Part shown: positions 13,294 through 31,803 of the stretch, one piece after another
Numbering within the stretch: the first letter of the stretch is position 1
How the letters are laid out: every line of letters begins with the position of its first letter
Source: Aliiroseovarius salicola
GTDB lineage: Bacteria; Pseudomonadota; Alphaproteobacteria; Rhodobacterales; Rhodobacteraceae
NCBI RefSeq assembly: GCF_027891095.1
Contig: NZ_JAQIIO010000003.1
Coordinates: 124,001-188,000, forward strand
DNA: 64,000 nt
Direction: 5' to 3'
Translations under genes and position numbers: made by a program
Notes under the pieces: generated by a model
Told to the model about the DNA's origin: nothing
Seen by the model: only the letters and a program-made list of their open reading frames with translations
Databases searched by the model: none

Positions 13294-14343
13294 TCAGCGT
13301 AGACCTTGGTTGATGCTGTCCAAGACCCGGCTGCCTGGGCAAAGTTCATCTTTGTCCAGCTCGTTGAGCGGTTTGTTTGCCAGGTTCAGCAGTTGGTTGA
13401 GATCCTGCGAGTTTGGATCAAGGTGCAGAAGCCCGGTCAGAATCTTGTCTTCTGCTTCGGCCTTCTGGATAGCCTGCATTGCTGCGGCCCTATCATCTGT
13501 CGCATAGTCGGAGCTGGCCTTTTGCAGGTGGATGACCGACCCGTCATGAAGCGTAACCGTCTGGCTGGTGCCCGCTTCGTATTGGGTGCGGATCTCTTCT
13601 CGCATTGGAATGAAATCAAGCTGCATCGCGTCCACATGTGCGCGGGTTTCGGCATAGCTCTTCGTGGAGCCCGCATGGTTGTTGAAGGTCACGCAGGGTG
13701 ACACGACATCAATGAAGGCAAAACCTTTGTGGGCCATGGCAGCGCGGATCAGCGGCTCCAGCTGTTCCTTGTCACCCGAGAAGCTGCGGGCAACAAAGCT
13801 GGCACCCTGCAGCAACGCAAGGCTGGCGAGGTCGATGCCGTCAAACGGGTTCACTGCGCCGCCTTTGGCGACCGACCCAAGATCGGCGGTTGCACTGTCC
13901 TGTCCCTTGGTCAGGCCGTAACAGCCATTGTTTGCCACGATATAGGTCATGTTCACATTGCGACGGATCAGGTGAACGAATTGCCCCATGCCAATGGATG
14001 CGGTGTCGCCATCACCGGACACGCCGATATAGGTGAGTTCGCGATTGGCAAGGCTTGCTCCGGTAGCAACAGATGGCATGCGCCCGTGAACCGAGTTGAA
14101 GCCATGGCTCCGGCCTAGAAAATAGGTGGGCATCTTTGACGAACAGCCAATACCTGAAAGCTTGGCGATGCGATGCGGCGGGATGGCGGACTTGAAACAG
14201 GCATTTCGGATTGCGGCCGAGATACTGTCATGGCCGCAGCCCGCGCAGAGGGTCGAGATCGCCCCGTCATAATCGGCCACAGAATAGCCCAGCGAGTTGG
14301 TGGGCAGCTTAGGGTGACGGAATTTCGGTTTCACATAAGACAT
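13294..14343 (-). CDS. korB: 2-oxoacid oxidoreductase, beta (ThDP) subunit, KorB-like
   Basis: 349-residue thiamine-diphosphate subunit that would decarboxylate a 2-oxoacid to acyl-CoA with release of electrons. Seen: CAGCGHDSISAAIRNA (iron-sulfur/ThDP region), GIGCSSKMPTYF, the ThDP-Mg motif GDGDTASIGMGQF ending with NNGCYGLTKGQ, and HKGFAFIDVVSPCVTFNNH. It is the last gene of a tightly overlapping three-gene operon (1-base overlap with the alpha gene). The C-terminal 50 residues are lineage-specific extension. Confidence 0.93.
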   Translation of the reverse strand: MSYVKPKFRHPKLPTNSLGYSVADYDGAISTLCAGCGHDSISAAIRNACFKSAIPPHRIAKLSGIGCSSKMPTYFLGRSHGFNSVHGRMPSVATGASLANRELTYIGVSGDGDTASIGMGQFVHLIRRNVNMTYIVANNGCYGLTKGQDSATADLGSVAKGGAVNPFDGIDLASLALLQGASFVARSFSGDKEQLEPLIRAAMAHKGFAFIDVVSPCVTFNNHAGSTKSYAETRAHVDAMQLDFIPMREEIRTQYEAGTSQTVTLHDGSVIHLQKASSDYATDDRAAAMQAIQKAEAEDKILTGLLHLDPNSQDLNQLLNLANKPLNELDKDELCPGSRVLDSINQGLR

Positions 14344-16223
14344 CAGGCGGTCTCCGGACGAAGCGCCACCACATCGGCGCTATGGGTGTTCAGGGTTTCG
14401 CGGATTTTACCGGCGATTGCGCGGGCGGTGATCGGCGTGCCGGAATAGTTCAGCACCGAGGTGAGCTTGTCCGGTGCAATCTGGCATTCGTTCATGATCA
14501 ACTGCCGCATCTGACCATCCCGGTTTTGTTCGATCACAAAGACCAGATCATGGTCGTGGATGAAATCATCCAGATCGTTGTGGAACGGGAAGGCGCGAAT
14601 ACGCATCGTGTCGATCGGTATCCCTTCTTCCGCCAGAATTTCAACGGCCTCGTAAGATGGTGAGGCTGATGTGCCGAAAAACAATGTGCCGATCTTCAGC
14701 TTGGTCTTGGGCTTTTTCACCTCAATGGGCGGGTGCGTTTTCGGGGTTGGAACATAGGTCTTTGCGGTGTCGAACTTGCGCAACAGCCGGTCAACGTTCT
14801 GCACGTAATCCTCGCCGCTTTCCGAATAGACCGCCATTTCATTCTTTGATGACCCGCGGGTGAAGTAAGCGCCTTTGTCGGGGTGTGTGCCCGGCAGGGT
14901 GCGAAAGCAGATGCCATCGCCATCCACGTCCAGATAACGCCCCCATTTTTCGGCCTCATCCAGTCCTTGGGCATCAAGGACCTTACCGCGATCCATTTCG
15001 TATTTGTCGTCCCATTCCAGCGGAGGGGACATCCAATCATTCATTCCTAGATCCAGATCGCTCATCAGGATCACCGGGGTTTGCAGCCGTTCGGACAGGT
15101 CGAAGGCTTCCACGGTCATGTCAAAGCATTCGCGTGGTGTGGCCGGGAACAACAGAACCTGTTTGGTGTCGCCATGGCTGGCATAGGCAGCGGCCAAAAC
15201 GTCGGATTGCTGGCTGCGAGTGGGCATACCCGTCGACGGACCCGAGCGTTGCACGTTGATCAGAACCACCGGCACTTCGGCGAAATAGGCGAGCCCCAGG
15301 AATTCACTCATCAACGATAACCCCGGTCCCGAGGTTGCGGTAAAGGCACGGGCTCCGTTCCAGTTGGCACCGACCACCATGCCAATGGCTGCAAGTTCAT
15401 CCTCGGCCTGAACAATGGCGTAGTTGCGCTTGCCGGTGCCCGGATCAATGCGCAGGCGCTCGGCATATTTGGAAAACGCATCGACCACTGATGTCGAGGG
15501 GGTGATCGGATACCAGGCCGCCACGGTGGCCCCGCCATAGATCGCACCAAGGGCCGCGGCAGTGTTGCCGTTCATCAGGATGTGTTCGCTTTCCGCAATA
15601 TGCGGCGCGTCGGCGTTGCCATTCTCAAGCCGGATCGCCAGCGGGCATTTGTAATTCTCAAGCGCGTATTGATACCCAATTTCCAGAGCTTGAACGTTGG
15701 ATGAAATCAGCTTCTCCTTGCCTTTGAACTGGTCAGCCAGCAGGTCTTTCACCATTGACAGGTCCATGTTCAGAAGGGCGGCAAGCGCGCCGACATAAAC
15801 CACGTTTTTCAAGAGTTGCTGGAGTCTCGGGACCTCAAATTCCTGCATGCACATCTGGGTCAGCGGGATGCCGATATAGGTGATATCGTCCCGTTTGAGA
15901 TGGGTCGGAAGTGGCTTAGTGGAATCGTAAAGGAAATACCCGCCCGGATCGACGCTTGCCACGTCCTTCTCCATGCTCTGCGGATTGACGCAAACCATCA
16001 GATCCACCCCGCCGCGCCGCCCGAGATAGCCGTTTTTGGAAACACGTACCTCATACCATGTGGGCAAGCCCTGAATGTTTGACGGGAAGATGTTGCGCGG
16101 GCTGACCGGGATCCCCATGCGGAAAATTGTCTTGGCGAACAGGTGGTTGGCACTGGCCGACCCTGTGCCGTTCACATTGGCAAACTTCACGACGAAATCG
16201 TTGACACCTTTGATCTTTTTCAT
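14343..16223 (-). CDS. korA: 2-oxoacid oxidoreductase, fused gamma/alpha subunit, KorA-like
   Basis: 626-residue fusion. Residues about 1-190 are the gamma domain (GTGSASANHLFAKTIFRMGI, then GRRGGVDLMVCVN); from about 220 on is the alpha pyrimidine-binding domain (GNTAAALGAIYGGATVAAWY, PITPSTSVVDAF, ATSGPGLSLMSEFLGLAYFA, EVPVVLINVQRSGPSTGMPT), with a C-terminal transketolase-like domain. The fusion is typical of 2-oxoglutarate/2-oxoacid:acceptor enzymes. It overlaps both neighbours, indicating fixed stoichiometry. Confidence 0.94.
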   Translation of the reverse strand: MKKIKGVNDFVVKFANVNGTGSASANHLFAKTIFRMGIPVSPRNIFPSNIQGLPTWYEVRVSKNGYLGRRGGVDLMVCVNPQSMEKDVASVDPGGYFLYDSTKPLPTHLKRDDITYIGIPLTQMCMQEFEVPRLQQLLKNVVYVGALAALLNMDLSMVKDLLADQFKGKEKLISSNVQALEIGYQYALENYKCPLAIRLENGNADAPHIAESEHILMNGNTAAALGAIYGGATVAAWYPITPSTSVVDAFSKYAERLRIDPGTGKRNYAIVQAEDELAAIGMVVGANWNGARAFTATSGPGLSLMSEFLGLAYFAEVPVVLINVQRSGPSTGMPTRSQQSDVLAAAYASHGDTKQVLLFPATPRECFDMTVEAFDLSERLQTPVILMSDLDLGMNDWMSPPLEWDDKYEMDRGKVLDAQGLDEAEKWGRYLDVDGDGICFRTLPGTHPDKGAYFTRGSSKNEMAVYSESGEDYVQNVDRLLRKFDTAKTYVPTPKTHPPIEVKKPKTKLKIGTLFFGTSASPSYEAVEILAEEGIPIDTMRIRAFPFHNDLDDFIHDHDLVFVIEQNRDGQMRQLIMNECQIAPDKLTSVLNYSGTPITARAIAGKIRETLNTHSADVVALRPETA

Positions 16224-18013
16224 GAGACCTCCATCAGGTCCGGGGTCGCCTTGGCGACATTATAGGTGAACAGCTTCATGTCCCAGGCGGCAGTCGGGCA
16301 ACGCTCGGCGCAAAGACCGCAATGCAGGCAGACATCTTCATCCTTGACCAGAACCTTGCCGGTATTCAGCGTTTGCGAGACATAGATGTCCTGTTCGGGA
16401 TCGTCGGCGGGCACCATCAGGTTTGCCCGCAGCTCCTCTTCCGGGGCGTTTTGGATGAAATTGATACAGCTGGTGGGGCAAATATCCGCGCAGGCGTCGC
16501 ATTCAATGCAACTGTCCGCCGTAAAGACCGTCTGGGCATCGCAGTTCAGGCAGCGTTCCGCCTGAACAAAGGCGGTTTCCAGATCAAAGCCCAGCTCGAC
16601 CTCAAGGTCGCGATCTTTCAGCGCCTCGCCTAGCTCGACCAGAGGGACAGCCTCGCGTTTGTCATTGACCGGAATGGAATCATAGCTCCATTCATGTATC
16701 CCCATCTTTTGGCTGATTAGCGTCACATTCGGGGCAGGGCGCTTTTCAAGATCCTTGCCGCGACAATAGAGGTCGATCGACACCGCGGCCTTGTGGCCGT
16801 GGGCCACGGCGGTGATGATATTGGCCGGACCAAAAGCGGCGTCCCCACCAAAGAACACGTCCTTGCGGGTCGACTGGAACGTCTCGTCATCATTGATGAT
16901 CGGCGTGCCCCAGCTGGTAAAGCGAATGCCGGTTTCCTTTTCGATCCAGGGGAAGGCGTTTTCCTGACCGATGGCAATCAGCACGTCATCACATTCAAAG
17001 AATGCAGGTTCCTCACCGGTTGGGACAAGCTCGCGGCGCCCGTCTTCGTGATATTTTGGCTCGACCTTTTCAAAGGTCATACCCACCAGCTTGCCCTTCT
17101 TCAGGACAAACTCCTTGGGGACGTGATTATCGATGATCGGGATGCCTTCGTGAATGGCGTCCTCTTTCTCCCAAGGCGAGGCCTTCATATCCTCGAAGGG
17201 CGAGCGCACGATCACCTTGACGTCCTCGCCGCCCAATCGGCGTGAGGTGCGGCAGCAATCCATAGCCGTGTTGCCACCTCCCAGAACGATGACCTTCTTG
17301 CCGATCTTCTTGGTGTGCTCGAAGGCCACATTGGCAAGCCAGTCCAGCCCGATATGGATGTTTTTGTCGGCTTTCTTGCGACCGGGCAGCTTGGGCAGGT
17401 CGCGCCCGCGCGGCGCGCCGCTTCCGACAAAGACCGCATCATATCCATTGGTCAGGATGTCCGCCATGCTGTCGACATAGGTGTTGAAATGGGCCGTGAT
17501 CCCCATATCCATCACATAGCCAACCTCTTCATCCAGCACGCTTTCAGGCAATCGGAACGAGGGGATTTCAGAGCGCATGAACCCCCCGGCCTTTGCGTTT
17601 GCATCGTAAAGATGCAGCTCGTACCCGAGCGGCGCCAGATCGCGCGCCACGGTCAACGAGGCGGGGCCGCCGCCGATCAGAGCGATCTTTTTTCCGTTGG
17701 GCTTTCCGGCACGCGGTAGACGAGAGGACACATCTTCCTTGAAATCTGCCGCCACCCGTTTCAGCCGACAGATGGCCACGGGTTCCTCTTCCACCCTGCC
17801 GCGCCGACAGACCGGTTCACAGGGGCGATCACAGGTCCGGCCCAGAACACCGGGGAAGACATTGCTTTCCCAGTTCACCAGATAGGCATCGGTATAGCGC
17901 TGTTGTGAAATGAGGCGGATATAGGCGGGCACCGGAGTATGTGCCGGGCAGGCAAACTGACAATCAACAACTTTATGAAAGTACTCAGGATCGGTAACGT
18001 TGGTCGGTTTCAA
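16220..18013 (-). CDS. GltD-like FAD/NAD(P) oxidoreductase with [4Fe-4S] clusters, electron-transfer subunit
   Basis: 597 residues. An N-terminal cluster domain (CQFACPAHTPVPAYI, then CDRPCEPVCRR) is followed by an FAD-binding GGGPASLTVA near residue 112, an NAD(P) site GGGNTAMDCC near 240, and two C-terminal ferredoxin motifs (CIECDACADICPTSC and CLHCGLCAERCP). It starts with TTG at 18013, seven bases after GGAG. First gene of the operon with the alpha and beta subunits, it should pass electrons from the ThDP enzyme to NAD(P)+. A similar KorABC arrangement is known for a 2-oxoglutarate:NADP+ oxidoreductase of Azoarcus evansii; substrate here is not proven. Confidence 0.9.
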   Translation of the reverse strand: MKPTNVTDPEYFHKVVDCQFACPAHTPVPAYIRLISQQRYTDAYLVNWESNVFPGVLGRTCDRPCEPVCRRGRVEEEPVAICRLKRVAADFKEDVSSRLPRAGKPNGKKIALIGGGPASLTVARDLAPLGYELHLYDANAKAGGFMRSEIPSFRLPESVLDEEVGYVMDMGITAHFNTYVDSMADILTNGYDAVFVGSGAPRGRDLPKLPGRKKADKNIHIGLDWLANVAFEHTKKIGKKVIVLGGGNTAMDCCRTSRRLGGEDVKVIVRSPFEDMKASPWEKEDAIHEGIPIIDNHVPKEFVLKKGKLVGMTFEKVEPKYHEDGRRELVPTGEEPAFFECDDVLIAIGQENAFPWIEKETGIRFTSWGTPIINDDETFQSTRKDVFFGGDAAFGPANIITAVAHGHKAAVSIDLYCRGKDLEKRPAPNVTLISQKMGIHEWSYDSIPVNDKREAVPLVELGEALKDRDLEVELGFDLETAFVQAERCLNCDAQTVFTADSCIECDACADICPTSCINFIQNAPEEELRANLMVPADDPEQDIYVSQTLNTGKVLVKDEDVCLHCGLCAERCPTAAWDMKLFTYNVAKATPDLMEVS

Positions 18014-18255: not shown

Positions 18256-19269
18256 TCAGGCCGAGTTTCGGATCACCATCTGACCAAGAAATTGCTGGTT
18301 TTCGGTCTGTTCCAGCTCGCCACTCAGCAAGGTCACAAGCCGTTCCGCCATCCGTGTTATCGGTTGGCGATAGGTCGTGATCCGGTAATTCGGATTGGCT
18401 GCGGCTGGAACGTCGTCAAACCCGGTGACCGCCACGTCTTCGGGGATGCGCAGGTTAAAATGGTGGCGCAATGCATCCATCGCCCCGATGGCAAGCGCGT
18501 CATTTTCGCAGACAATCACATCCGGGAACGCGTCTGGTTGGCGCTCTGACAGCCTGTCAATGATTGCGGAATAGGCCATGCCGGGGTCATAGCTTGGCAC
18601 GTCTGCCACCTCTGGCGTCATGCCGCGATGCTCTTGCCAGCGAGCGACAAAAGCCTCTTGCCGGGTCAGATGGGCGGATTTGGTTTGCGGTCCGGCCAGA
18701 AAGAACGGGCGCTGATAGTCGCGCCCCATCACATAATCCGCGATCTCGGTCATCGCGGCGTGATCATCAACACTGATTGAGATCGTGTCAGGGTTTTCCG
18801 AGTTGCGTGCGAAGATGATCAGCTTTTTCACCCGCCGCGCGCCGAGGGCTGCCGACAGCACATCGTCATCGAACTGCACCCCAATCAGGATCGCCGCGTC
18901 CACGCGGCGTTGGCTGGCTGACAAAAGAGCGCCAGGGGCGTCATCCTTGTCGAGCATGTTGACCAACAGCGTATCCCAGCCGTTCTTGCGCAATACCCGG
19001 GTCAGACGCTCCATCATGACCAGCTTGTGTGGATTGCTGAAATCATCCACCAGAAGCGCCACCAGATTGCTGCGGTCCGACGCGAGGGATGCGGCCAGAA
19101 GGTTGGGGGCGTATCCCAGTTTTTCAGCGGCCTCCATCACCGTCTGGCGGCTTTTGGCGGAAATCGATGCATTGGGTTTGAACGCGCGGTTCACCGTCCA
19201 GCGCGAGACGCCGGCGGCTTGTGCCACGTCATCGGCAGTTACCTCATTGGCATCTTTTCTGTCGCTCAT
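18256..19269 (-). CDS. LacI-family transcriptional regulator
   Basis: 337-residue repressor-type regulator. The N-terminal helix-turn-helix reads VTADDVAQAAGVSRWTVNRAF, followed by the hinge helix region LGYAPNLLAASLASDRSNLV and a periplasmic-binding-protein-like sensor domain ending in the typical DVAVTGFDDVPAAANPNYRI. Start 19269 is chosen for AGGAGG upstream; the longer frame would run through the operator. It is divergent from two Gfo/Idh/MocA dehydrogenases, and the shared 140-bp promoter carries a double operator, so it very likely controls the catabolic cluster and itself. Confidence 0.92.
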   Translation of the reverse strand: MSDRKDANEVTADDVAQAAGVSRWTVNRAFKPNASISAKSRQTVMEAAEKLGYAPNLLAASLASDRSNLVALLVDDFSNPHKLVMMERLTRVLRKNGWDTLLVNMLDKDDAPGALLSASQRRVDAAILIGVQFDDDVLSAALGARRVKKLIIFARNSENPDTISISVDDHAAMTEIADYVMGRDYQRPFFLAGPQTKSAHLTRQEAFVARWQEHRGMTPEVADVPSYDPGMAYSAIIDRLSERQPDAFPDVIVCENDALAIGAMDALRHHFNLRIPEDVAVTGFDDVPAAANPNYRITTYRQPITRMAERLVTLLSGELEQTENQQFLGQMVIRNSA

Positions 19270-19323
19270 CGCATCGGCCTCCTCTGGGCACCCTAGCCTT
19301 AGAATTGGCGCCTGACCATCACA

Positions 19324-19363
19324 TTTGCTCGCGCGTGCAAAAAATCTTGCACGCGCGAGCAAA
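19324..19363. promoter_or_regulatory. Double LacI-type operator (nested inverted repeat)
   Basis: Two perfect 17-bp arms (TTTGCTCGCGCGTGCAA, 19324-19340; TTGCACGCGCGAGCAAA, 19347-19363) flank AAAATC. Each arm also contains a nearly symmetric 16-bp LacI-type site with central CGCG (TTGC-N8-GCAA, 14 of 16 positions symmetric), centred 22 bp apart, two helical turns. Two repressor dimers could therefore bind the same face of the DNA between lacI and the divergent dehydrogenase gene. Confidence 0.85.
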
Positions 19364-19409: not shown

Positions 19410-20408
19410 ATGCTGAGAGTAGGTTTGCTTGGGGCAGGGCGTATTGGTCAGGTCCATGCGGTCAATATTGCCGGGCATGCGCTGAGCGAGTTGGTGGCGG
19501 TCTCGGATTTCCATGCTCCCGCTGCAAAGTCGCTGGCCGCCCAATATGGCGCTGACGTAAAAAGTTCAGAGGAAATCCTCGCGGATCCGTCAATCGACGC
19601 AGTCTTGATTGCCACGCCAACCGACACCCATTCCGACCTGATCGAAGCCGCGGTTGCCGCTGGGAAGGGTGTGCTCTGCGAAAAGCCGGTTGATCTGTCT
19701 CTGGCCCGCGCAAAAGCGTGCCTTGCTGCCACGGATGGGGCCACCAAACCGATCATGATCGGATTCAATCGGCGATTTGATCCCAATTTTTCAGCCCTTC
19801 AGCGGGCCGCCGCACAGGGGGAGATCGGCAAAGCTGAACTCCTCTCCGTCACCTCTTTTGATCCGGCGCCCCCCCCGGTGGACTATGTGAAAGTCTCCGG
19901 TGGCCTGTTTCGGGACATGATGATTCATGATTTTGACATGGCAAACTTCCTGATGAGGGACACTCCGATCAGCATTTCAGCAGTGGGGAGCGCGATCATT
20001 GATCCCGCCATCGGAGCCGCAGGCGATGTGGATACCGCCGTGGTGACCATGACCTACGGCGATGGGCGCATTGCGGTCATCAAAAACTCGCGCCGGGCCG
20101 CATACGGATATGATCAACGGGTTGAGCTTCTTGGGTCCGAGGGGCTTCTGGCCGCTGACAACATGCTGGAGAACACGGTTTCGAAATCCACCAAGGCCGG
20201 GGTGACAGGTGCCAAGCCCGAACATTTCTTTCTGGAACGTTATCAGAAAGCCTATGTGGCCGAATGGCAGGCCTTCATCGATGCGATGCTGAATGGAGCT
20301 CCGGTGCCGGTGTCACTGGAAGATGGGGTGATGGCCCTGGCAATGGCCGAAGCAGCGACGAGGTCAGCGAGTGTCGGGCGCACGGTTTTGCTAAGTGAGA
20401 TTGTCTAA
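19410..20408 (+). CDS. Gfo/Idh/MocA oxidoreductase, inositol 2-dehydrogenase-like
   Basis: 332-residue NAD(P)-dependent sugar/cyclitol dehydrogenase. The N-terminal Rossmann site is MLRVGLLGAGRIGQVHAVNI, the catalytic Lys is in LCEKPVDLS, and the C-terminal domain has FNRRFDPNF and GGLFRDMMIHDFDMANFLM, the latter including the catalytic Asp/His pair seen in inositol dehydrogenases (IolG). Start 19410 has GGGAGATTGAG upstream; it opens the operon just after the LacI double operator. iolG-like, but substrate (myo-inositol, a derivative, or a sugar) is inferred. Confidence 0.88.
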   Translation: MLRVGLLGAGRIGQVHAVNIAGHALSELVAVSDFHAPAAKSLAAQYGADVKSSEEILADPSIDAVLIATPTDTHSDLIEAAVAAGKGVLCEKPVDLSLARAKACLAATDGATKPIMIGFNRRFDPNFSALQRAAAQGEIGKAELLSVTSFDPAPPPVDYVKVSGGLFRDMMIHDFDMANFLMRDTPISISAVGSAIIDPAIGAAGDVDTAVVTMTYGDGRIAVIKNSRRAAYGYDQRVELLGSEGLLAADNMLENTVSKSTKAGVTGAKPEHFFLERYQKAYVAEWQAFIDAMLNGAPVPVSLEDGVMALAMAEAATRSASVGRTVLLSEIV

Positions 20409-20411
20409 ACC

Positions 20412-21518
20412 ATGTCAGGTCAACCAAAGACAATTGGGGTTGGATTGCTGGGCACCGGGTTCATGGGCAAATGCCATGCCCTTGCCTGGCAACAGGTTGC
20501 CGCGACATTTGGGACGACGCATCCAAGGTTGGAACTTCTGGCCGACGTTGATGTTGAAGTGGCCAAACACGCGGCGCAACAATTCGGATTTTCCCGGGCA
20601 ACGGATGACTGGCATTCGGTTGTGACTGATCCCGCCGTGGACGTTGTCTCGATCACCACCCCCAATGGGTTGCATCGCCCGATGGCAGAGGCAGCGCTGA
20701 AAGCTGGCAAACATGTCTGGCTGGAAAAGCCCATGTCTTCGACATTGGACGATGCACAAGCGCTGGTCGACTGTGCGGCCTCTCATCCCGGGCAGGTCAC
20801 GATATTGGGGTATAGTTTCCTCCGGTCCCCCGCCTTTCAGGCCGCTCGCAAGATGGTTGCGCAGGGAGAGATCGGAACCCCGGTGTGTATCCGGGGCGTG
20901 TATGACGAAGATTATTGCGCTAATCCTGAATTGCCCTGGAGCTGGCGCATGACGCGCGCGCAAGGCGGGCTGGGCGCGCTTGGGGATCTGGGGTGTCACC
21001 TCGTCAGCCAGATGTGCGCATTGCTGGGCCCGGTGACAGAGGTCATTGGGCAAACGCATACTTCCATTACGACACGACAGTCACCGGATGGTTCCAAGCC
21101 GGTCGAAAACGAAGATGTCGCATCTGCCATGATACGGTTTGTCTCTGGTGCGCATGGTACGTTTTCAACGTCGCGCGTCGCCCATGGGCGCAAATGCCGG
21201 TTGCAGTGGGAGCTTCAGGGCACCGACGGCACCATTGCCTTTGATCATGAAAACATGAACGAGCTCTGGGTGTGCCGGGCGGGTGAAGCCGGGTTCACGC
21301 GACACCTCAGCGGACCTGATCAACCTGATTTTGCTGCCTTTTGCCCGGCGCCTGGCCATGGGTTTGGCTTTAACGACCTGAAGGTCATCGAAGCCCGCGA
21401 TCTTATACGGGCCATTGAGGGGGGCGCCAATGCGGGACCAGATTTTGTTGAAGGGCTGGAAATCGAACGGATCATACATGCCATTGCCTCTTCACATGGT
21501 CATGCGATCAGTTTGTAG
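20412..21518 (+). CDS. Gfo/Idh/MocA oxidoreductase, second paralogue
   Basis: 368-residue NAD(P)-dependent dehydrogenase, three bases after the first. Rossmann motif [20 protein letters not shown], lysine motif [13 protein letters not shown], and the C-terminal [22 protein letters not shown] with the conserved Asp and His. It is unlike its neighbour in sequence, so the two probably act on different substrates or steps. It closes the first transcription unit before a 157-base gap to the dioxygenase. Confidence 0.86.
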
Positions 21519-21565
21519 AGGGTGCGATGCCGAAGAGGCCTCAGTGCAATATTACGGCTGGTCGC

Positions 21566-21582
21566 TTGAGTGTTGAACTCAA
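21566..21582. promoter_or_regulatory. Inverted repeat upstream of the PhyH gene
   Basis: TTGAGT (21566-21571) and ACTCAA (21577-21582) around GTTGA, in the 157-base gap between the second dehydrogenase and the dioxygenase gene. Size and position would suit an operator, but it does not resemble the TTGC...GCAA site found before the first dehydrogenase. Confidence 0.3.
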
Positions 21583-21675
21583 TTCTCTGGAAAACATGAT
21601 GAATTTGTTTGGTTTGACCTAAGTTTCACCGCCCCATCCGGGGTTAACATCACCACCAACGGAAAGGACATTACC

Positions 21676-22851
21676 ATGGTGGACTATGAATTCGGATATA
21701 TCCCTTACTTTGATCGCGAAAGCTGCGATCTGGACGAATTCAAGGTGTTGACCTCACAGGCACTTGAGCTGGGGCAGGTACCCCATGCGGCTGAGGTCGC
21801 CAAGAACGTGCCGATCTATGACATGAATGCGCTGCGCAGTTCTTTGGAAGATCCGGAAAAACGGCGTGCCCTGATGGCGGAATGGGCTTGGGTGCTGGGC
21901 CGGTCTTCGGGTGTCGTCGTGCTGAAAGCGGCCTATGCTGATACGGGGCCTGTTGATGCCGCCACCGCGATTTACCAACAGGTGATTGCGGATGAGCGCA
22001 AAGGGGCGGCCGGAAGCGGAGATCATTTCGCGGCAGCAGGCGCCAATGACCGGATCTGGAACTCGCTCCAGAAACTTTGCGAACGTGATCCGCAGGTCTT
22101 TGCCCGCTATTTCGCCAACACGGCGATTGCCGCGATCTGCGAAGCGTGGCTGGGACCGAACTACCAGATGACCGCGCAGGTCAATCAGGTACGCCCCGGC
22201 GGCGCGGCGCAGGATGCGCATCGCGATTATCATCTGGGGTTCCAGACCTCGGATGTGGCCGAAACATACCCCGCCCATATGCATGACCTGTCGGCGGCGC
22301 TTACGCTGCAGGGGGCGGTGGCGCATTCGGATATGCCGGTGGTGTCTGGCCCGACCAAACTCCTGCCGTTCTCGCAACTTTATCGCCCCGGCTATGTGGC
22401 GTGGCGGCGTGAGGATTTCCGGGTGTATTTCGAAGAAAGCCACATCCAGCTTCCGCTGGAAAAGGGGGATGCGGTGTTCTTCAATCCGGCGCTCTTTCAT
22501 GCGGCGGGGGCCAATACCAGCGAAGATATCGAGCGGATGGCGAACCTGTTGCAGGTCTCGTCCGCCTTTGGTCGCGCGATGGAAAGTGTCGACAGGCTGG
22601 GGATGTCAAAACGGCTTTATCCGGCACTTCAGGCGCTGGGCGATACATTGACACCGGCCGAACGAAAGGCGGCGATTGCCGCCTGCGGAGAGGGATATTC
22701 CTTCCCGACCAACCTCGACACCGATCCGCCAACCGGGGGGCTGGCCCCAGAAACACAAGCGGCGCTTCTTGGTCGAGCATTCGACGAAGGGTCGTCGGCA
22801 GAGGCCGTCGTCACCGCGCTTGAGGCACAGGTCAAACGCCGCGAGGCATGA
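21676..22851 (+). CDS. Phytanoyl-CoA dioxygenase (PhyH) family Fe(II)/2-oxoglutarate oxygenase
   Basis: 391-residue putative 2-oxoglutarate-dependent hydroxylase. The metal site is visible as H-x-D in AQDAHRDYHLGFQ and the distal His in FFNPALFHAAGANTS, followed by Arg in DIERMANLLQVS for 2-oxoglutarate. The protein is longer than classic PhyH enzymes. It overlaps the short lead of iolB, and its place in a cyclitol/sugar cluster suggests hydroxylation or oxidative demethylation of a polyol derivative (inference). Confidence 0.85.
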   Translation: MVDYEFGYIPYFDRESCDLDEFKVLTSQALELGQVPHAAEVAKNVPIYDMNALRSSLEDPEKRRALMAEWAWVLGRSSGVVVLKAAYADTGPVDAATAIYQQVIADERKGAAGSGDHFAAAGANDRIWNSLQKLCERDPQVFARYFANTAIAAICEAWLGPNYQMTAQVNQVRPGGAAQDAHRDYHLGFQTSDVAETYPAHMHDLSAALTLQGAVAHSDMPVVSGPTKLLPFSQLYRPGYVAWRREDFRVYFEESHIQLPLEKGDAVFFNPALFHAAGANTSEDIERMANLLQVSSAFGRAMESVDRLGMSKRLYPALQALGDTLTPAERKAAIAACGEGYSFPTNLDTDPPTGGLAPETQAALLGRAFDEGSSAEAVVTALEAQVKRREA

Positions 22852-22907
22852 TAGAAAACAGGGGCCGCGCTCAGGCGCGGCTCGATTCGAGTTTGAGGGG
22901 GCAGACC

Positions 22908-23714
22908 ATGGCAGATCTTCTGCGTAAACCATTTGGAAACCACGGTAAGGTGCATGACATCACGCCGGAAAGCGCAGGGTGGCGCTATGTAGGCTTCGGC
23001 CTTTACAAGCTCCGTGCAGGTGAAAGCGCCGAGGAACTGACCGGTGATCGCGAGGTGATCCTGGTGATGGTCGAAGGCAAAGCCCAGATCACCGCTGCCG
23101 GACAGGATTGGGGCGTTCTCGGGGATCGCATGAATGTCTTTGAAAAGACTCCGCCGCATTGCCTCTATGTGCCGAACGGGTCCGAGTGGAAAGCCACGGC
23201 GGAAACCGAGTGTACGGTTGCGGTCTGCACGGCGCCGGGCAAAAGCGGTCATGAAGCGCGGCGGATTGGTCCCGATGGCATCACGCTCACCGAACGCGGC
23301 AAAGGTACGAACACGCGCTACATCAACAATATCGCCATGGAAGCGGAAGATTACGCCGACAGCTTGCTGGTGACCGAAGTGTTCACCCCGGCAGGCCACT
23401 GGTCGTCCTTCCCGTCGCATCGCCATGACGAAGATGATTTTCCACGGATCACCTATCTGGAAGAGACCTATTACCACCGCCTGAACCCCGCGGACGGGTT
23501 TGGCATCCAGCGCGTCTATACCGATGATGGCGGGCTTGATGAAACCATGGCGGTGAATGACGGCGACGTGGTCCTTGTCCCGCGCGGACATCATCCCTGC
23601 GGGGCGCCATACGGGTTCGAGATGTATTATCTCAACGTGATGGCAGGGCCATTGCGCAAATGGCGGTTCGTCCCGGCCCCCGAAGTGGAATGGATCATGG
23701 AGCGGGACGCCTGA
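22908..23714 (+). CDS. iolB: 5-deoxy-glucuronate isomerase
   Basis: Isomerises 5-deoxy-D-glucuronate to 2-deoxy-5-keto-D-gluconate in myo-inositol breakdown. 268 residues of a two-cupin protein; recognisable stretches are GWRYVGFGLYKLRAGES, the metal-ligand region SSFPSHRHDEDDFPRITYLEE (His/His/Glu), and FGIQRVYTDDGGLDE with PRGHHPCGAPYG. Start 22908 follows GAGGGGGCAGACC; the earlier ATG 22848 lies in the previous gene's end. The other iol genes (C, D, E) are not in this window. Confidence 0.93.
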   Translation: MADLLRKPFGNHGKVHDITPESAGWRYVGFGLYKLRAGESAEELTGDREVILVMVEGKAQITAAGQDWGVLGDRMNVFEKTPPHCLYVPNGSEWKATAETECTVAVCTAPGKSGHEARRIGPDGITLTERGKGTNTRYINNIAMEAEDYADSLLVTEVFTPAGHWSSFPSHRHDEDDFPRITYLEETYYHRLNPADGFGIQRVYTDDGGLDETMAVNDGDVVLVPRGHHPCGAPYGFEMYYLNVMAGPLRKWRFVPAPEVEWIMERDA

Positions 23715-24469
23715 TGCCAGATTTTGCCAATTATCCCAGCCTTCAAGGCAAAACGGTCTTCATCACCGGAGGGGCATCGGGGATCGGTGCGGAGACCGTG
23801 AAAGCCTTTGCAGAGCAGGGGGCCAAGGTGGGGGTTGTCGATCTCGATGAAACTGCGGCCAGTGATCTCCTGTCTGGTCTCGATGGGGATCATGCATTTG
23901 TCCGATGCGATCTTCGTGACATAGCGGCGTTGCAAAAGGCGTTTGATGAGCTCGCGGACGGACTGGGACCAGCACAGGTATTGGTGAACAACGCGGCGCG
24001 CGATGATCGGCACAATTGGGCGGATGTGACACCTGACTATTGGGATGAACGCATGAACACCAACCTGCGCCACATGTTCTTTGCCATCCAGTCGGTTGCG
24101 CCTGGAATGATTGCTGCCGGTGGTGGGTCGATCATCAACATAGGGTCGAACTCTTGGTGGGAGGCAGGCGGGGGGTTCCCGGCATACACAACCGCCAAGG
24201 CGGCCGTGCACGGCCTCACCCGCACCATGGCGCGCGATCTTGGCCAGCACCACATTCGCGTCAATACCGTGGTGCCCGGGTGGATCATGACAGATCGCCA
24301 GAAAGAACTTTGGGTGACACCCGAGGCGCTGGGTAAGCAAGTCGAGCGTCAATGCCTGCCAGATCCGATTGATCCGGTGTATGTCGCACGGATGGTGTTG
24401 TTTCTCGCTTCGGATGACGCGGCCATGTGCAGCGCAAACAATTTCATGGTCGAAGCCGGGTCGATCTGA
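23714..24469 (+). CDS. SDR-family oxidoreductase, sugar-dehydrogenase (XylB)-like
   Basis: 251-residue short-chain dehydrogenase. NAD site TGGASGIGAETVKAF, catalytic Ser in INIGSNSWWEAGGG and Tyr/Lys in AYTTAKAAVHG. The segments YPSLQGKTVFITGG, NNAARDDRHNWADVT, YWDERMNTNLRHM and VLFLASDDAAMC resemble Caulobacter-type D-xylose/aldose 1-dehydrogenase (XylB) from memory. TGATG overlap with iolB shows coupling. Probable role: oxidation of an aldose or cyclitol intermediate of the cluster. Confidence 0.85.
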   Translation: MPDFANYPSLQGKTVFITGGASGIGAETVKAFAEQGAKVGVVDLDETAASDLLSGLDGDHAFVRCDLRDIAALQKAFDELADGLGPAQVLVNNAARDDRHNWADVTPDYWDERMNTNLRHMFFAIQSVAPGMIAAGGGSIINIGSNSWWEAGGGFPAYTTAKAAVHGLTRTMARDLGQHHIRVNTVVPGWIMTDRQKELWVTPEALGKQVERQCLPDPIDPVYVARMVLFLASDDAAMCSANNFMVEAGSI

Positions 24470-25527: not shown

Positions 25528-26031
25528 TTGAATAACACCCCATCAAGACGCGCCTTTTTAAGAGGCAAGGTCAATGAGACCCTTCGCCCACGGCCCCCGG
25601 GCGCCGCTGGCGATATTGCGTTTCATGATGACTGCACCCAGTGCGGAGATTGTGCGCGTGCCTGTCCGGAAGGGATCATCATGCGCGACGGTGACGGTTT
25701 GCCGGTTCTCAATGTGTCCCGAGGGGCTTGCACATTCTGCAATGCCTGCATCGACGCCTGCGAACCCGGTGCCCTGTTATCCGAGCGCCCTTTCCCCTGG
25801 CGGGTGGCTGCTCAATCCTCGTGCCTGTCCATGAGCGGTGTGCAATGCCGCGCCTGTCAGGACCATTGTGACCTGGGCGCGATCCGCTTTCAGCTGCAAC
25901 CGGGCGGATCCGCCCAGCCGCTGTTCGATCTGGACGCCTGCACCGGATGTGGGGGCTGTATTTCCCCGTGCCCGGTTGGCGCCATTGAATTCACCCAAAT
26001 CCAACCGCAAACGGAGGCCCGCCCATGCTGA
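25528..26031 (+). CDS. napF: Ferredoxin-type protein NapF
   Basis: 167-residue cytoplasmic iron-sulfur protein thought to help mature or feed NapA. Three [4Fe-4S] motifs are visible: CTQCGDCARACPEG, CTFCNACIDACEPG and CTGCGGCISPCPVG, with a fourth partial Cys set CRACQDHCDLG between. N-terminus SRRAFLRG is typical. It must start at TTG 25528; an ATG seven bases earlier is out of frame and encodes only MTLE. It overlaps napD by 7 bases. Confidence 0.95.
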   Translation: MNNTPSRRAFLRGKVNETLRPRPPGAAGDIAFHDDCTQCGDCARACPEGIIMRDGDGLPVLNVSRGACTFCNACIDACEPGALLSERPFPWRVAAQSSCLSMSGVQCRACQDHCDLGAIRFQLQPGGSAQPLFDLDACTGCGGCISPCPVGAIEFTQIQPQTEARPC

Positions 26032-26294
26032 ATATCTGCGGCTGCCTGGTACATACAATGCCCGATATGACCGATCAGGTCATGGCAGCGATCAATGCCA
26101 CAGAGGGCGGCGAAGTCCATGCCCATGAAGACGGTCGCATCGTCGTGACCGTCGAAGACACGTCCGAGATGCGTGCATCAGACCAGATCATGGAGATGCA
26201 TCAGATCCCGGGCGTGATCACCGTAACCCTGACCTATCACCATTTCGAAGAGCTCGACGAGAACGTCGATGGTTCTTCGCCGACCAAACACTAA
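26025..26294 (+). CDS. napD: NapD, Tat-signal chaperone of NapA
   Basis: 89-residue cytoplasmic chaperone that binds the twin-arginine signal of NapA until its molybdenum cofactor is inserted. NICGCLVHTMPDM near the N-terminus, the GGEVHAHEDGRIVVTVE strand, and ITVTLTYHHFEELD near the end are typical of NapD. Starts inside the end of napF (7-base overlap) and lies 15 bases before napA. Confidence 0.95.
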   Translation: MLNICGCLVHTMPDMTDQVMAAINATEGGEVHAHEDGRIVVTVEDTSEMRASDQIMEMHQIPGVITVTLTYHHFEELDENVDGSSPTKH

Positions 26295-26309
26295 AACGGG
26301 AGACCCATC

Positions 26310-28805
26310 ATGACCACGTCCCGCCGCTCTTTCCTGAAAGCCAGCGCCGCCGCCGCAACCGCGTCGGCCGCTGGGATCACCCTGCCGAATGCGGCCACCG
26401 CGCAAGTGCGCAAGCCTGACATTCGCTGGGACAAAGCCGCCTGCCGCTTCTGCGGAACGGGCTGTTCTGTTCTTGTCGGGGTGAAAGATGGCAAAGTTGT
26501 TGCCACCCAAGGTGACCCGGAAGCTCCGGTGAACCGCGGGTTGAACTGCATCAAAGGCTATTTCCTGTCGAAAATCATGTACGGCAAGGACCGTCTGACC
26601 ACACCGCTTCTGCGCATGACCAACGGCGTCTATGACAAAGAAGGCGAGTTTACCCCGATCAGCTGGGATCAAGCCTTCGACATCATGGCCGAGAAATGGA
26701 AAGACGCGCTCGCCAAGAAGGGCCCGACTTCTGTTGGTATGTTCGGCTCTGGCCAATGGACCGTCTGGGAAGGCTATGCTGCCGCCAAGTTCATGAAGGC
26801 TGGCCTGCGGTCCAACAACATCGACCCCAACGCCCGCCACTGTATGGCGTCCGCCGTGGCAGCGTTCATGCGCACCTTCGGCATCGACGAGCCGATGGGC
26901 TGCTATGACGACCTTGAACACGCTGATACCTTCGTGCTCTGGGGCTCGAACATGGCTGAGATGCACCCGATCCTGTGGTCGCGTCTGACCGACACCCGCC
27001 TGACCAAACCGGGCGCAGAGGTGCATGTTCTGTCGACCTTCGAGCACCGCTCGTTCGAACTGGCCGACAATGGCATGATCTTCGAGCCGCAAACCGACCT
27101 CGCGATCCTGAACTACATCGCCAACTACATCATCCAGACCGGTGCGGTGAACCAGGAGTTCGTTGAGAGGAACGTCAACATCACCAAGACCAACACCGAC
27201 ATCGGATACGGTCTGCGCCCGACCCACGCACTGGAGCAGGCTGCAGAAAACCCATCCCATGAAGGCAAACACGGCAAGCTGACCCCGATTACCTTCGAGG
27301 AATATGCCGAAGCCGTGTCGAAATACACGTTGGAATACACAGCCGAGCTGTCGGGCGTACCCGCAGCCAAGCTGGAACGTCTGGCCAAGCAATATGCCGA
27401 TCCGAACCGGAAAATCATGTCGCTCTGGACCATGGGTTTCAATCAGCACACCCGCGGTTCCTGGGTGAACTCGCTGATGTACAACGTGCACCTGCTTGTT
27501 GGTAAGATCTCCGAGCCGGGCAACTCGCCCTTCTCGCTGACCGGTCAGCCGTCGGCTTGTGGTACCGCCCGTGAGGTTGGCACCTTTGCGCACCGTCTGC
27601 CTGCCGATATGGTGGTCATGAATGAAGCGCACCGCGACTTTGCAGAAGACAAGTGGATGCTGCCAAAAGGCACCATTCCGGCCAAGCCGGGCTTCCACGC
27701 CGTGCTGCAGCACCGCAAGCTGAAAGATGGCGACCTGAACGCATATTGGGTTCAGTGTACCAACAACATGCAAGCAGCCCCGAACATCAACGAAGAAGGC
27801 CTGCCGGGCTATCGCAACCCGGAAAACTTCATCGTCGTGTCTGATCCGTATCCGACCGTGACCGCAATGGCCGCTGACCTGATCCTGCCCACTGCGATGT
27901 GGGTCGAGAAGGAAGGCGCTTATGGTAACGCTGAACGCCGCACCCAGTTCTGGCGCCAGCAGGTGGATGCACCGGGTGAATCCAAGTCGGACGTGTGGCA
28001 GGTGATGGAATTCGCCAAACGCTTCAAAGTGGAAGAAGTCTGGCCGGAAGAGCTGATTGCTCAGAAACCGGAATATCGTGGCAAGACGCTTTACGAGATC
28101 CTGTTTGAAAACGGCAAGATCAACAAATATCCGCTGTCTGAAACCGCAGAAGGCTTTGGCAACGACGAGGCCAAGCACTTCGGCTACTACGTCCAAAAAG
28201 GTCTGTTCGAGGAATACGCCGATTTCGGTCGCGGCAAAGCCCACGACTTGGCAGATTTCGATACATACCACCAGGCCCGCGGTTTGCGTTGGCCAGTGGT
28301 TGACGGCAAGGAAACGCTCTACCGCTTCCGCGAGGGGTATGACCCCTATGTGAAGAAGGGCGAAGGCGTGAAATTCTACGGCAAGCCCGATGGCAAGGCG
28401 AACATCATTTTCGCCCCCTACGAGCCGCCTGCAGAAAGCCCGAATGAAGAGTTTGACCTCTGGCTGATCACTGGCCGTGTGCTGGAGCACTGGCATTCCG
28501 GTTCGATGACCCGCCGCGTGCCCGAACTGCACCGTTCGTTCCCGTCTGCCGTGGTGTTCATGCACCCGGAAGACGCCAAGGATCGTGGTCTGCGCCGCGG
28601 ACAGGAGATCGTGATTTCTTCGCCGCGCGGCGAGATGACCTCGCGGGTGGAAACCCGTGGTCGGAACAAACCGCCTCGTGGGTCGGTCTTCGTGCCCTGG
28701 TTCGACGAACACCAGCTGATCAACAAGCTGACGCTGGACGCAACTTGCCCGATCTCGAAAGAGACCGACTTCAAGAAGTGCGCCTGTAAAGTTGAGCGCG
28801 CCTGA
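26310..28805 (+). CDS. napA: Periplasmic nitrate reductase catalytic subunit
   Basis: 831-residue molybdoenzyme reducing nitrate to nitrite in the periplasm. A Tat signal begins [18 protein letters not shown]. The [4Fe-4S] cluster is bound by C45, C48, C52 and C80 (CRFCGTGC, then NCIKG). The molybdenum-ligand cysteine is at about residue 178 in [13 protein letters not shown]-binding segments such as [13 protein letters not shown] and VISSPRGEM are present. Length and order fit NapA. It is followed by napG, 31 bases on, in a napFDAGHBC layout. Confidence 0.98.
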
Positions 28806-28836
28806 TCCGATAACGGACTGATAAGGAAAGAAAGCC

Positions 28837-29700
28837 ATGTCCTCCGCCAACCGCAACACCACGCCCGTGAACCGGCGCCGCTTCCTGCAGGATGCGGCCC
28901 GGGTGGCTGGTGCTTGCGCGGTGGGGGGCATGGCACTCACAAAGCTTGCCACCGATGCACGCGCCCTTCCGGCGCAGGCGCTCCGCCCGCCCGGAGCGCT
29001 TCCAGAAGAGCATTTTCTGGCCGCGTGCATTCGTTGTGGGCTTTGCGTGCGGGATTGCCCCTATGACACGCTGAAACTGGCGGAACTGGGCCTTGATGGC
29101 GCGGCCACCGGCACACCGTTTTTCACCGCCCGCGATGTGCCTTGCGAAATGTGCGAGGACATCCCCTGCGTCGTGGCCTGCCCAACGGGCGCGCTTGACC
29201 ATGATCTGACGAATATCGACGACTCGCGCATGGGACTTGCGGTGTTGATCGACGAGGAGAAATGCCTCAATGCGCTCGGTCTGCGCTGTGATGTCTGCTA
29301 TCGCGTCTGCCCGGTGATCGATAAGGCGATCACGCTGGAACTGTCGCACAACCAGCGCTCGGGCGCCCATGCCATCTTCATGCCGGTTGTGCATTCCGAT
29401 CATTGCACCGGCTGCGGTAAATGCGAGAAATCCTGCGTTCTGCCCGGTGAGGCTGCAATCAAAGTGCTGCCGATCCGCGTGGCCACGGCAGATGCCGCTG
29501 ATCACTACCGGCTTGGCTGGGAAGAGGACACCCCTCTGGTCGACGAGCTGATCGACTTGCCGGACCGCCTGCCTGGACCGGGTACTGACAATCTTGTCGC
29601 CCCCGGTGGGTATCTGCCAGAAGGCATGCCGGATCCCAGCATGGAGGGCGGCTTTGCACCTTCTTACGGGCTTCCGGGAATTGGGGGGGCAGGGCAATGA
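28837..29700 (+). CDS. napG: Ferredoxin-type protein NapG
   Basis: 287-residue periplasmic quinol-linked electron carrier. It has a Tat-type N-terminus ([15 protein letters not shown]), then four [4Fe-4S] motifs: [35 protein letters not shown] and [11 protein letters not shown]. It passes electrons, with NapH, from menaquinol or ubiquinol toward NapC/NapB. It overlaps napH by 4 bases. Confidence 0.95.
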
Positions 29701-30620
29701 GCCAGACAACATCCCTTCCCGTCGGACGCGAAGCGGTTTTGGAAAAAGGCTGGTGGAAAGCCTATCAGTTCCTGATCCTGCGTCGCATCAGCCAGGTGTT
29801 CTTCCTTGGCATCTTCCTGCTTGGCCCTTGGGCCGGGATCTGGTGGGTGAAAGGTAATCTGGCCAGTTCACTAACCTTCGACATCCTGCCGCTGACCGAT
29901 CCTTTTGTGTTGCTGCAAGGTATGCTGGCCCAGCATTGGCCCGAGATGACCGCCATCATCGGAGCGCTGATTGTTGGCGTCGCCTATGCGCTCATTGGCG
30001 GGCGGGTCTATTGCAGCTGGGTCTGCCCGATCAACCCGGTCACCGATACGGCACATTGGCTGCATGACAAACTGGGGTTTGCCAAAGGTTGGCAGCCAAA
30101 ACGGAACACACGTTACTGGGTGCTGGGCATGGTTCTGGCTGTGTCTGCACTCACCGGCAGCATTGCATGGGAACTCGTCAATCCGATCTCGATGCTGCAT
30201 CGCGGTCTTATCTTTGGAATGGGTTTCGCCTGGACCTTTGTGCTCGCTGTCTTTGTCTTCGACCTCGTCGTATCACGGCGCGGCTGGTGCGGGCATCTCT
30301 GCCCGGTAGGGGCCTTCTATGGGCTTCTGGGAAAAGGTTCGATCCTGCGGGTCAGCGCCACCAAACGCGCCGAATGCGACGATTGCATGGACTGCTTTGC
30401 GGTCTGCCCCGAAATGCACGTGATTACGCCCGCCCTTCGCGGTGCGGACGCGGACACACCGATTATCCTGTCATCCGATTGCACCAATTGTGGACGTTGC
30501 ATCGACGTCTGCGCACCGGATGTCTTCACTTTCACCACCCGGTTCGATGAAACCCCCGCGCCCGCCCGCGCGGAACGCCGGAATACCAAACGTCAACCCG
30601 AGGCCAGTCGCGCGGCCTGA
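29697..30620 (+). CDS. napH: Quinol dehydrogenase membrane subunit NapH
   Basis: 307-residue inner-membrane protein with several hydrophobic helices ([21 protein letters not shown], then [27 protein letters not shown] and [11 protein letters not shown]), cytoplasmic Cys motifs CSWVCPINP and [12 protein letters not shown], and two C-terminal ferredoxin motifs [12 protein letters not shown] and [11 protein letters not shown]. Oxidises quinol with NapG. Downstream 20 bases is napB. Confidence 0.95.
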
Positions 30621-30640
30621 CAAAACACGGGAGTAGCCCA

Positions 30641-31066
30641 ATGAGAAAGCACTTTTTGATCAGCGCCATCGTCGTCCCGACGCTTCTGGCCAGCGCCGTC
30701 TGGGCGCAGAACGCCAGCGTTCAATCCCTGCGGGGCGCCGCAGTCGATGAACATATTGCAGTGGAGGATGTGTTCCACCAGGACAAGGATCGGTTCACCC
30801 GCAACTATCGCCAGCAGCCACCGCTCATTCCGCACTCGATCGACCAATACCAGATCGACCTGAAAGCGAACCGCTGCCTGTCCTGCCATGACTGGACCCA
30901 AGCAGGCGAGCGTAACGCACCGACGCTGTCGATGACCCACTATCAGGACCGTGAAGGCAACCAACTGGATGTTGTGGCCGGCACCCGCTGGTTCTGTAAC
31001 CAATGCCACGTACCGCAAGCTGACGCGCCTGCGCTGGTGGAAAACACGTTCGAGGCCTCGAACTGA
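30641..31066 (+). CDS. napB: Periplasmic nitrate reductase diheme cytochrome c
   Basis: 141-residue small subunit that delivers electrons to NapA. A Sec signal (MRKHFLISAIVVPTLLASAVWA) precedes two heme c sites, CLSCH and CNQCH. The RQQPPLIPHSIDQYQIDL and CLSCHDWTQAGERNAPTLS stretches are characteristic of NapB. Starts after a GGGAG ribosome site. Confidence 0.96.
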   Translation: MRKHFLISAIVVPTLLASAVWAQNASVQSLRGAAVDEHIAVEDVFHQDKDRFTRNYRQQPPLIPHSIDQYQIDLKANRCLSCHDWTQAGERNAPTLSMTHYQDREGNQLDVVAGTRWFCNQCHVPQADAPALVENTFEASN

Positions 31067-31098
31067 GGCGCGGATGAGGAAGGGAAAGGATAACAGAT

Positions 31099-31803
31099 AT
31101 GTCTGACGCAAATCCCGGGTTCATCCGCCGCACATGGCGCTGGTTCTGGACACCGACAGGAGCGATCTCATTGGGCGCGCTTCTCGTTTCCGGCTTTGTT
31201 GCCGGGGTGGTGTTCTGGGGCGGCTTCAACTGGGCGCTCGAGATGACCAACAAGGAAGAATTCTGTATCTCGTGCCACGAGATGCAAGACAACGCTTTCG
31301 CCGAATATCAGGGCTCGGTGCACCAGAACAACAGTTCGGGCGTGCGCGCCACTTGCCCGGATTGTCACGTGCCGAAGGATTGGGGCCCGAAGATCATTCG
31401 CAAGATCAAGGCCACCAAAGAGCTCTATGGTCACTTCATCACCAAATCGATCTGGACCCGCGAGAAATTCGAGGATCTTCGCATCGATCTGGCGGCCAAT
31501 GAATGGCGTCGAATGAAGTCGACAAACTCGCAAGAGTGCCGCAACTGCCACAATTTCGAGTACATGGACTTTACGGCTCAGGAAAACCGAGCTGCCGACA
31601 ACCACCAGGTTGCGCTGGATGAGGGCAAGACCTGTATCGATTGCCACCAGGGCATCGCGCATGAATTGCCCGAAGGCTGGCAGGACCGCTACGAGCAGGT
31701 TGTGCAGGAAATGGCCGCTGCCGGTGAACTGACCCTGCCGGATGGTCGTCAGGTCGCTGACGCCAAAGGCGAGATCGAAGGATTCCTGACCTCGGGCAAC
31801 TGA
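31099..31803 (+). CDS. napC: Tetraheme cytochrome c NapC
   Basis: 234-residue NapC/NirT-family membrane-anchored cytochrome. One N-terminal helix (TGAISLGALLVSGFVAGVVFWGG) precedes four heme c sites, CISCH, CPDCH, CRNCH and CIDCH. It connects the quinol pool to NapB/NapA. Last gene of the operon, closed by the terminator at 31834. Confidence 0.97.
   Translation: MSDANPGFIRRTWRWFWTPTGAISLGALLVSGFVAGVVFWGGFNWALEMTNKEEFCISCHEMQDNAFAEYQGSVHQNNSSGVRATCPDCHVPKDWGPKIIRKIKATKELYGHFITKSIWTREKFEDLRIDLAANEWRRMKSTNSQECRNCHNFEYMDFTAQENRAADNHQVALDEGKTCIDCHQGIAHELPEGWQDRYEQVVQEMAAAGELTLPDGRQVADAKGEIEGFLTSGN

Follow-up and report, generated by a model that had tools for sequence, protein, structure and literature searches.

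A PhyH-family oxygenase gene linked to inositol catabolism in Aliiroseovarius salicola and other bacteria

We analysed a 64,000-nucleotide stretch of the Aliiroseovarius salicola genome (NCBI RefSeq assembly GCF_027891095.1, contig NZ_JAQIIO010000003.1, positions 124,001 to 188,000 of the forward strand; hereafter the window), in which a gene for an oxygenase of the phytanoyl-CoA dioxygenase family (PhyH) lies among inositol genes. Consistent with an original prediction made from the letters alone, we found a compact group of five intact open reading frames (ORFs) on the forward strand between positions 19410 and 24469. The first, iolG (19410–20408), encodes inositol 2-dehydrogenase (TIGR04380, 425.9 bits against a cut-off of 355) and is the sole match above that cut-off in the whole genome. 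It is followed after 3 bases by a second Gfo/Idh/MocA enzyme (20412–21518), which resembles scyllo-inositol dehydrogenase, and then, after a 157-base gap, by PhyH (21676–22851; 391 amino acids). The stop codon of PhyH overlaps the start of iolB, the gene for 5-deoxy-glucuronate isomerase (22848–23714; TIGR04378, 346.1 bits against 205), in an ATGA at 22848, and iolB overlaps in turn a gene for a short-chain dehydrogenase/reductase (SDR; 23714–24469) in a TGATG at 23712. Because of this second overlap, the true SDR start is probably 23714, not 23660. A LacI/GalR-family regulator (18256–19362, reverse strand; Pfam LacI and Peripla_BP_3), whose true start is probably internal to its ORF, is divergent from iolG and part of the gene group although it lies beyond the five genes; a congener (L052/L096) has a homologue, 55% identical, at the corresponding position. 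The order in the congener is LacI, iolG, iolE, PhyH, iolB, and the place of iolE is taken in the window by the scyllo-inositol-type dehydrogenase.

Two of these genes are best described by likeness. The second Gfo/Idh/MocA protein has full-length homology to a characterised scyllo-inositol dehydrogenase (PDB 5ya8/6ktj); by sequence, its match to 5ya8, LgdA of Paracoccus laeviglucosivorans, covers residues 1–361 (E 8.9e-145). Levoglucosan dehydrogenase was rejected as a name for it (NF052479, 281.5 bits against a cut-off of 650). The lgdA gene has itself been placed in a putative inositol cluster (PMC5969746). The SDR had been labelled ‘XylB-like’, which is fair, as its best NCBIfam model is NF053674; the score of 311.3 bits is below the cut-off of 400, and XylB (D-xylose 1-dehydrogenase) was therefore not adopted as its name. 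SDRs 75–77% identical to it follow iolB in Ruegeria iol operons (for example, L099–L101, L103, L105 and L116).

The PhyH protein is predicted to be an Fe(II)/2-oxoglutarate (2OG) oxygenase on the basis of its family and intact ligands. It passes the gathering score of the phytanoyl-CoA dioxygenase family (PF05721) at 102.5 against 22 bits, and it shares with that family the HxD...H ligands and the fold. Residues H182, D184, H275 and R287 are invariant across 121 PhyH sequences, 112 of them distinct. The first three are the putative HxD...H iron ligands, and R287, from its place 12 residues past the distal histidine, is the predicted 2OG-binding arginine. An AlphaFold (AF2) model built from 60 sequences has a 2OG-oxygenase fold (mean predicted local distance difference test score 87.8, predicted template modelling (TM) score 0.89), and its best Foldseek matches are the 2OG oxygenases 8zyb, TlxIJ, AndA and SptF, with 13–19% identity and a TM score by query of about 0.45. 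In contrast to its family match, PhyH matches no NCBIfam model, even at E 10, and its best PDB matches are only this distant. The PDB and Foldseek comparisons, searched for hints of a substrate, returned the fold only; the structure matches thus suggest fold and likely chemistry, not substrate. A search of viral contigs found no relative.

The absence of iolC, iolD and iolE from the window, noted in the original prediction of an unusual polyol pathway, was confirmed: tblastn of the 64 kb at E 1e-6 found no IolC, IolC-DUF2090, IolD or either of two IolE types. The accompanying claim that the window has no transporter stood for the two sugar ATP-binding cassette (ABC) sets that were searched, other transporter families not having been searched. 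The missing genes do not, however, amount to an unusual pathway, because those steps are on another contig, C28, of the same genome. C28 encodes an IolD (791.6 bits against a cut-off of 715), an IolC (300.3 against 300), an IolE-like protein whose best scores of 182–183 bits fall short of 290, and an IolB-like protein (149, below 205). Also encoded there are a class II aldolase, which scores under the cut-offs of the aldolase models, and a binding protein of the rhizopine type (265 bits, below the NF052284 cut-off of 420), and Gfo/Idh/MocA genes are interspersed. With the remaining steps on C28, the genome looks able to run the inositol pathway, and we rejected an incomplete or exotic pathway, noting that IolE is present as a below-cut-off homologue only. 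In Phaeobacter inhibens, an IolJ-like aldolase has been placed in the inositol pathway from fitness data (PMC9007349).

The prediction had also tentatively linked PhyH to inositol catabolism, a link that is supported by its nested co-occurrence with iolD and by its position in iol operons. In a sample of 390 genomes of the order, using thresholds of E 1e-20 or better for PhyH and E 1e-110 for IolD, we found PhyH in 120 genomes and IolD in 247, 246 of them above the curated cut-off. All 120 PhyH carriers fell inside the 247 iolD genomes, and none of the 143 iolD-negative genomes carried PhyH (Fisher P = 7e-31, a value that is too small because the genomes are related). Tallied by genus, PhyH occurs in 47 and iolD in 85 of 139 genera, for which P = 7e-14 serves as a rough guide. 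One carrier, G060, has an IolD match at only 1.9e-171. In two others, G163 and G190, the only PhyH copy contains stops. Conversely, 127 of the 247 iolD genomes lack PhyH. The nesting extends to a phylum sample of 398 genomes, in which all 19 carriers, 11 of them also in the order sample, were among the 79 IolD genomes. In a class sample, PhyH was carried by 9 of 385 genomes, 6 of them new. Of the 14 carriers from beyond the order, iolD is present in 13, the exception being G580, a genome that is 64% complete. Combined, IolD is present in 133 of 134 distinct carrier genomes. Decaying PhyH copies with internal stops were seen at G163:C17, G190:C4, G069:C1 and G336:C4, all in iolD genomes.

We examined the neighbourhood of PhyH in the top 80 of 259 relatives (the named loci), and 22 of these 80 loci are shorter than 19 kb. 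Core iol genes lie within 9 kb of PhyH in 26 of these loci, and in 18 the order is iolE–PhyH–iolB; a divergent LacI gene adjoins PhyH in 52, and 8 have no neighbour from the reference set within 600 bases. In a count of recognised families within 4.5 kb of PhyH over 134 loci, 9 of which repeat a place already included under a different name, this LacI was found 73 times, iolB 39, an ABC ATPase 30, and iolE and iolD 28 each. SDR genes make up smaller recurring groups, as do additional iol, ABC and LacI genes; several others resemble spurious frames on the opposite strand. Some PhyH genes also have rhizopine-type transport genes nearby: in L079, PhyH lies together with a Gfo/Idh enzyme and an ABC transporter of the rhizopine type, and a rhizopine-type binding protein stands beside PhyH in L050 (273 bits against the same NF052284 cut-off), with further such copies elsewhere. 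As a control, we used 20 hand-picked iol loci from genomes without PhyH. In 17 of them iolE is directly followed by iolB, and the other three have no recognised iolE–iolB pair; one of the 17, L178, from a genus-mate of the Ruegeria loci, matches their operon, SDR included, apart from the lack of PhyH. PhyH is thus an optional insertion between iolE and iolB, not a core step.

Where PhyH is paired with its own LacI gene, the two start codons are separated by a region with a direct repeat, TTGATGNNTT, the second copy of which follows 11 bases on (for example, in L070, L084, L095 and L139). Of 67 LacI–PhyH intergenic regions, three of them duplicates, 59 retain the repeat in a loose form and 46 in a stricter one. 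A direct repeat is unusual for a LacI-type regulator; these proteins normally bind palindromes. Among the same 67 regions, a CG-containing palindrome was found in perfect form in L111, in imperfect form in L075 and not in the other 65. A PDB search with the regulator returned sugar-binding proteins and LacI relatives. We then scanned 14 genomes, 13 of them bearing the LacI gene, with a 22-base repeat pattern, allowing up to two mismatches and using the reversed pattern as a control. Of 18 matches, 8 lie at the LacI–PhyH locus (four exact, three with one mismatch and one with two), including all seven with no or one mismatch. Where PhyH has this LacI, its control thus seems to be local. The genome of the window contains no match to the 22-base pattern, and a search for the PhyH-linked LacI, made without a positive control of its own, gave no match there at E 1e-10; the PhyH of the window probably answers to the other LacI gene, at 18256–19362.

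By the taxonomy of the records, the PhyH subfamily is present in Alpha-, Beta- and Gammaproteobacteria and in one actinobacterium. Among 14 distant loci, the LacI gene lies beside PhyH or beside an SDR–PhyH pair in 8 and an iol gene is nearby in 6, with L208 having neither. Forty-seven plasmid records matched PhyH; Ruegeria sp. TM1040, for example, has a LacI–PhyH pair on its megaplasmid. We inspected 14 plasmid regions, 10 chosen by PhyH and 4 by LacI, one of the latter (L230) having no PhyH. In the regions chosen by PhyH, LacI lies beside PhyH or its SDR in 8 of 10, and an SDR like that of L218 lies beside PhyH in 6 of 10; such an SDR was found in one of the three LacI-chosen regions that contain PhyH. 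The three SDR proteins tested (L218, L081 and L220) all exceeded the model PRK06198. With the SDR of L218, that of the window shares only 30% identity. On a plasmid of the actinobacterium Tsukamurella, a LacI–PhyH–SDR trio is clustered with iolD, iolB, iolC and iolG, and the trio recurs on plasmids in L235 (Rhizobium tumorigenes), L234 (Ciceribacter, conjugative) and L227 (pTiB21_90). The LacI gene of L234 is split into two ORFs. Since it is found on plasmids, and in L235 amid insertion sequence (IS) elements and toxin–antitoxin genes, the trio may move as a unit.

Taken together, PhyH goes with the inositol pathway, is dispensable to it (absent from 127 of 247 iolD genomes) and often has a regulator of its own, and for these reasons we favour the explanation that it is an optional entry enzyme, one that feeds an inositol derivative into inositol catabolism by oxidation, to which we give a rough probability of 0.62. 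PhyH would act on a derivative outside the range of the core enzymes and release an inositol or inosose. The product would be degraded first by IolG or the scyllo-inositol-type dehydrogenase and subsequently by IolE, IolD, IolB, IolC and an aldolase; in the genome of the window, the remaining pathway would be supplied by the C28 cluster. We infer that PhyH acts before IolG and not on a pathway intermediate. Among derivatives, an O-methyl inositol is our first choice, with a deoxy-inositol or an inosamine next and a pathway intermediate as the main rival. The favoured reaction is O-demethylation of a methylated inositol of the pinitol, ononitol or sequoyitol type, which would also yield formaldehyde; this is a guess to which, even granting an entry enzyme, we would allow somewhat less than an even chance.

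Several observations weigh against this explanation. Fifty-four of the 80 named loci have no core iol gene (IolB, IolC, IolD and IolE types at ≥40% identity) within 9 kb, 47 of these being LacI–PhyH pairs, and the flanking by iolE and iolB elsewhere would fit action on a pathway intermediate equally well. The 28 largest groups of recurring PhyH neighbours included no formaldehyde-handling gene. The repeat pattern also has 10 matches away from the LacI–PhyH locus, all with two mismatches, compared with 3 for the reversed control, and 5 of the 13 LacI-bearing genomes have no match to it at the PhyH locus. In L218 (10678–15007), PhyH is followed by the SDR, an SMP-30/gluconolactonase-like protein and a glycoside hydrolase family 2 (GH2) protein, which hints at a sugar or glycoside-derived substrate in that lineage. 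Finally, the nearest solved structures, at the identities given above, are silent on substrate.

An entry enzyme might instead hydroxylate a deoxy-inositol of the quercitol type or oxidatively deaminate an inosamine. 2OG oxygenases carry out demethylation, hydroxylation and deamination alike, KanJ of kanamycin synthesis being an example of deamination, and rhizopine-type binding proteins stand beside some PhyH copies, as in L050; both binding proteins tested nevertheless score well under the rhizopine cut-off. No evidence separates these reactions from demethylation. We consider this alternative unlikely, though worth keeping in view, and since it overlaps the favoured explanation the odds of the explanations do not sum to one. 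Slightly less probable is that PhyH acts, as a side branch or in repair, on an intermediate or damaged side product of the pathway, such as an inosose, diketo-deoxy-inositol or 5-deoxy-glucuronate. Its placement in 18 of the 80 named loci, with iolE directly on one side and iolB on the other, and its near confinement to iolD genomes would suit such a role, but more than half of the iolD genomes do without PhyH, and a divergent LacI of its own (52 of 80 loci) with a conserved repeat (59 of 67 regions) suits a separate substrate better than housekeeping repair. That PhyH is a passenger sugar oxygenase of unrelated role, travelling with iol genes on mobile plasmids, is very improbable: the LacI–PhyH–SDR cassettes on plasmids (L235 among IS and toxin–antitoxin genes, L234 conjugative), the lactonase-like and GH2 genes after the L218 cassette and the 54 loci without a nearby core iol gene speak for it, but against it stand the nesting in iolD genomes across the three overlapping samples and the presence of PhyH within iol clusters not just in Rhodobacterales but also in other Pseudomonadota and an actinobacterium.

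The idea of an entry enzyme for an inositol derivative has a precedent in rhizopine catabolism (mocABC, mocDEF). That system resembles the present one in its oxygenase complex, its binding protein, its dependence on the inositol pathway and the divergent LacI-type regulator at mocD. The two differ in their oxygenases, as MocDEF is reportedly of the ferredoxin type (going by the title of Bahar 1998) whereas the enzyme here belongs to the PhyH family, and the two binding proteins tested here score below the rhizopine model (265 and 273 against 420). An oxygenase feeding the inositol pathway is thus already known; new are the enzyme family and its reach. Rhizopine is an O-methyl inosamine, and one paper links its use to mocDEF, IolD and IolA and states that no component of the root exudate of Mimosa pudica is more concentrated than pinitol (PMC5789663); a LacI-type regulator is divergent from mocD in several rhizobia (PMC3538637). 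An O-methyl inositol as the substrate of PhyH would fit both the rhizopine precedent and the pinitol in root exudate. That a widespread, plasmid-borne LacI–PhyH module, in many cases with an SDR, is a new oxidative route that demethylates O-methyl inositols, independently of the ferredoxin-oxygenase route for rhizopine, is a more specific proposal that we regard as doubtful.

Compared with the canonical myo-inositol pathway (iolG, E, D, B, C, and J or DUF2090), of which the iolG and iolB of the window are true members and the remaining steps are on C28 (IolE there being below its cut-off), the difference lies in PhyH, which some operons carry between iolE and iolB; we know of no oxygenase in the canonical pathway. 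A search of part of the open-access literature, with most subscription papers outside it, found no link between a PhyH-family enzyme and bacterial inositol catabolism and, rhizopine apart, no account of bacterial genes that open methylated inositol ethers. Methylated inositols are common in plants. PhyH would represent an unnamed oxygenase subfamily tied to one pathway, with a testable class of substrates and, if the favoured reaction is correct, a route into O-methyl inositols, which make up much of the cyclitol pool of plants. In a study of Rhizobium leguminosarum bacteroids, a protein named as a phytanoyl-CoA dioxygenase, RLV_6451, is tabulated along with a scyllo-inositol aminotransferase ahead of the lentil-specific entries, and both are apparently pea-specific (PMC7950203).

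The window carries three other gene groups near the inositol genes. Before the regulator, on the reverse strand (13294–18013), is a three-gene operon that encodes a pair of the 2-oxoacid:ferredoxin-oxidoreductase type and an Fe–S flavoprotein (Pfam POR, POR_N, TPP_enzyme_C, Fer4_20 and Pyr_redox_2). Downstream of the inositol genes, on the forward strand, a periplasmic nitrate reductase-like group (25528–31803) comprises a molybdopterin oxidoreductase, several Fer4 proteins and a NapC-type cytochrome. It is followed on the same strand by a pair of ORFs (32605–34651), the last of which encodes an IMS (Y-family polymerase-like) protein, a pair that we take to resemble the imuA/imuB mutagenesis cassette.

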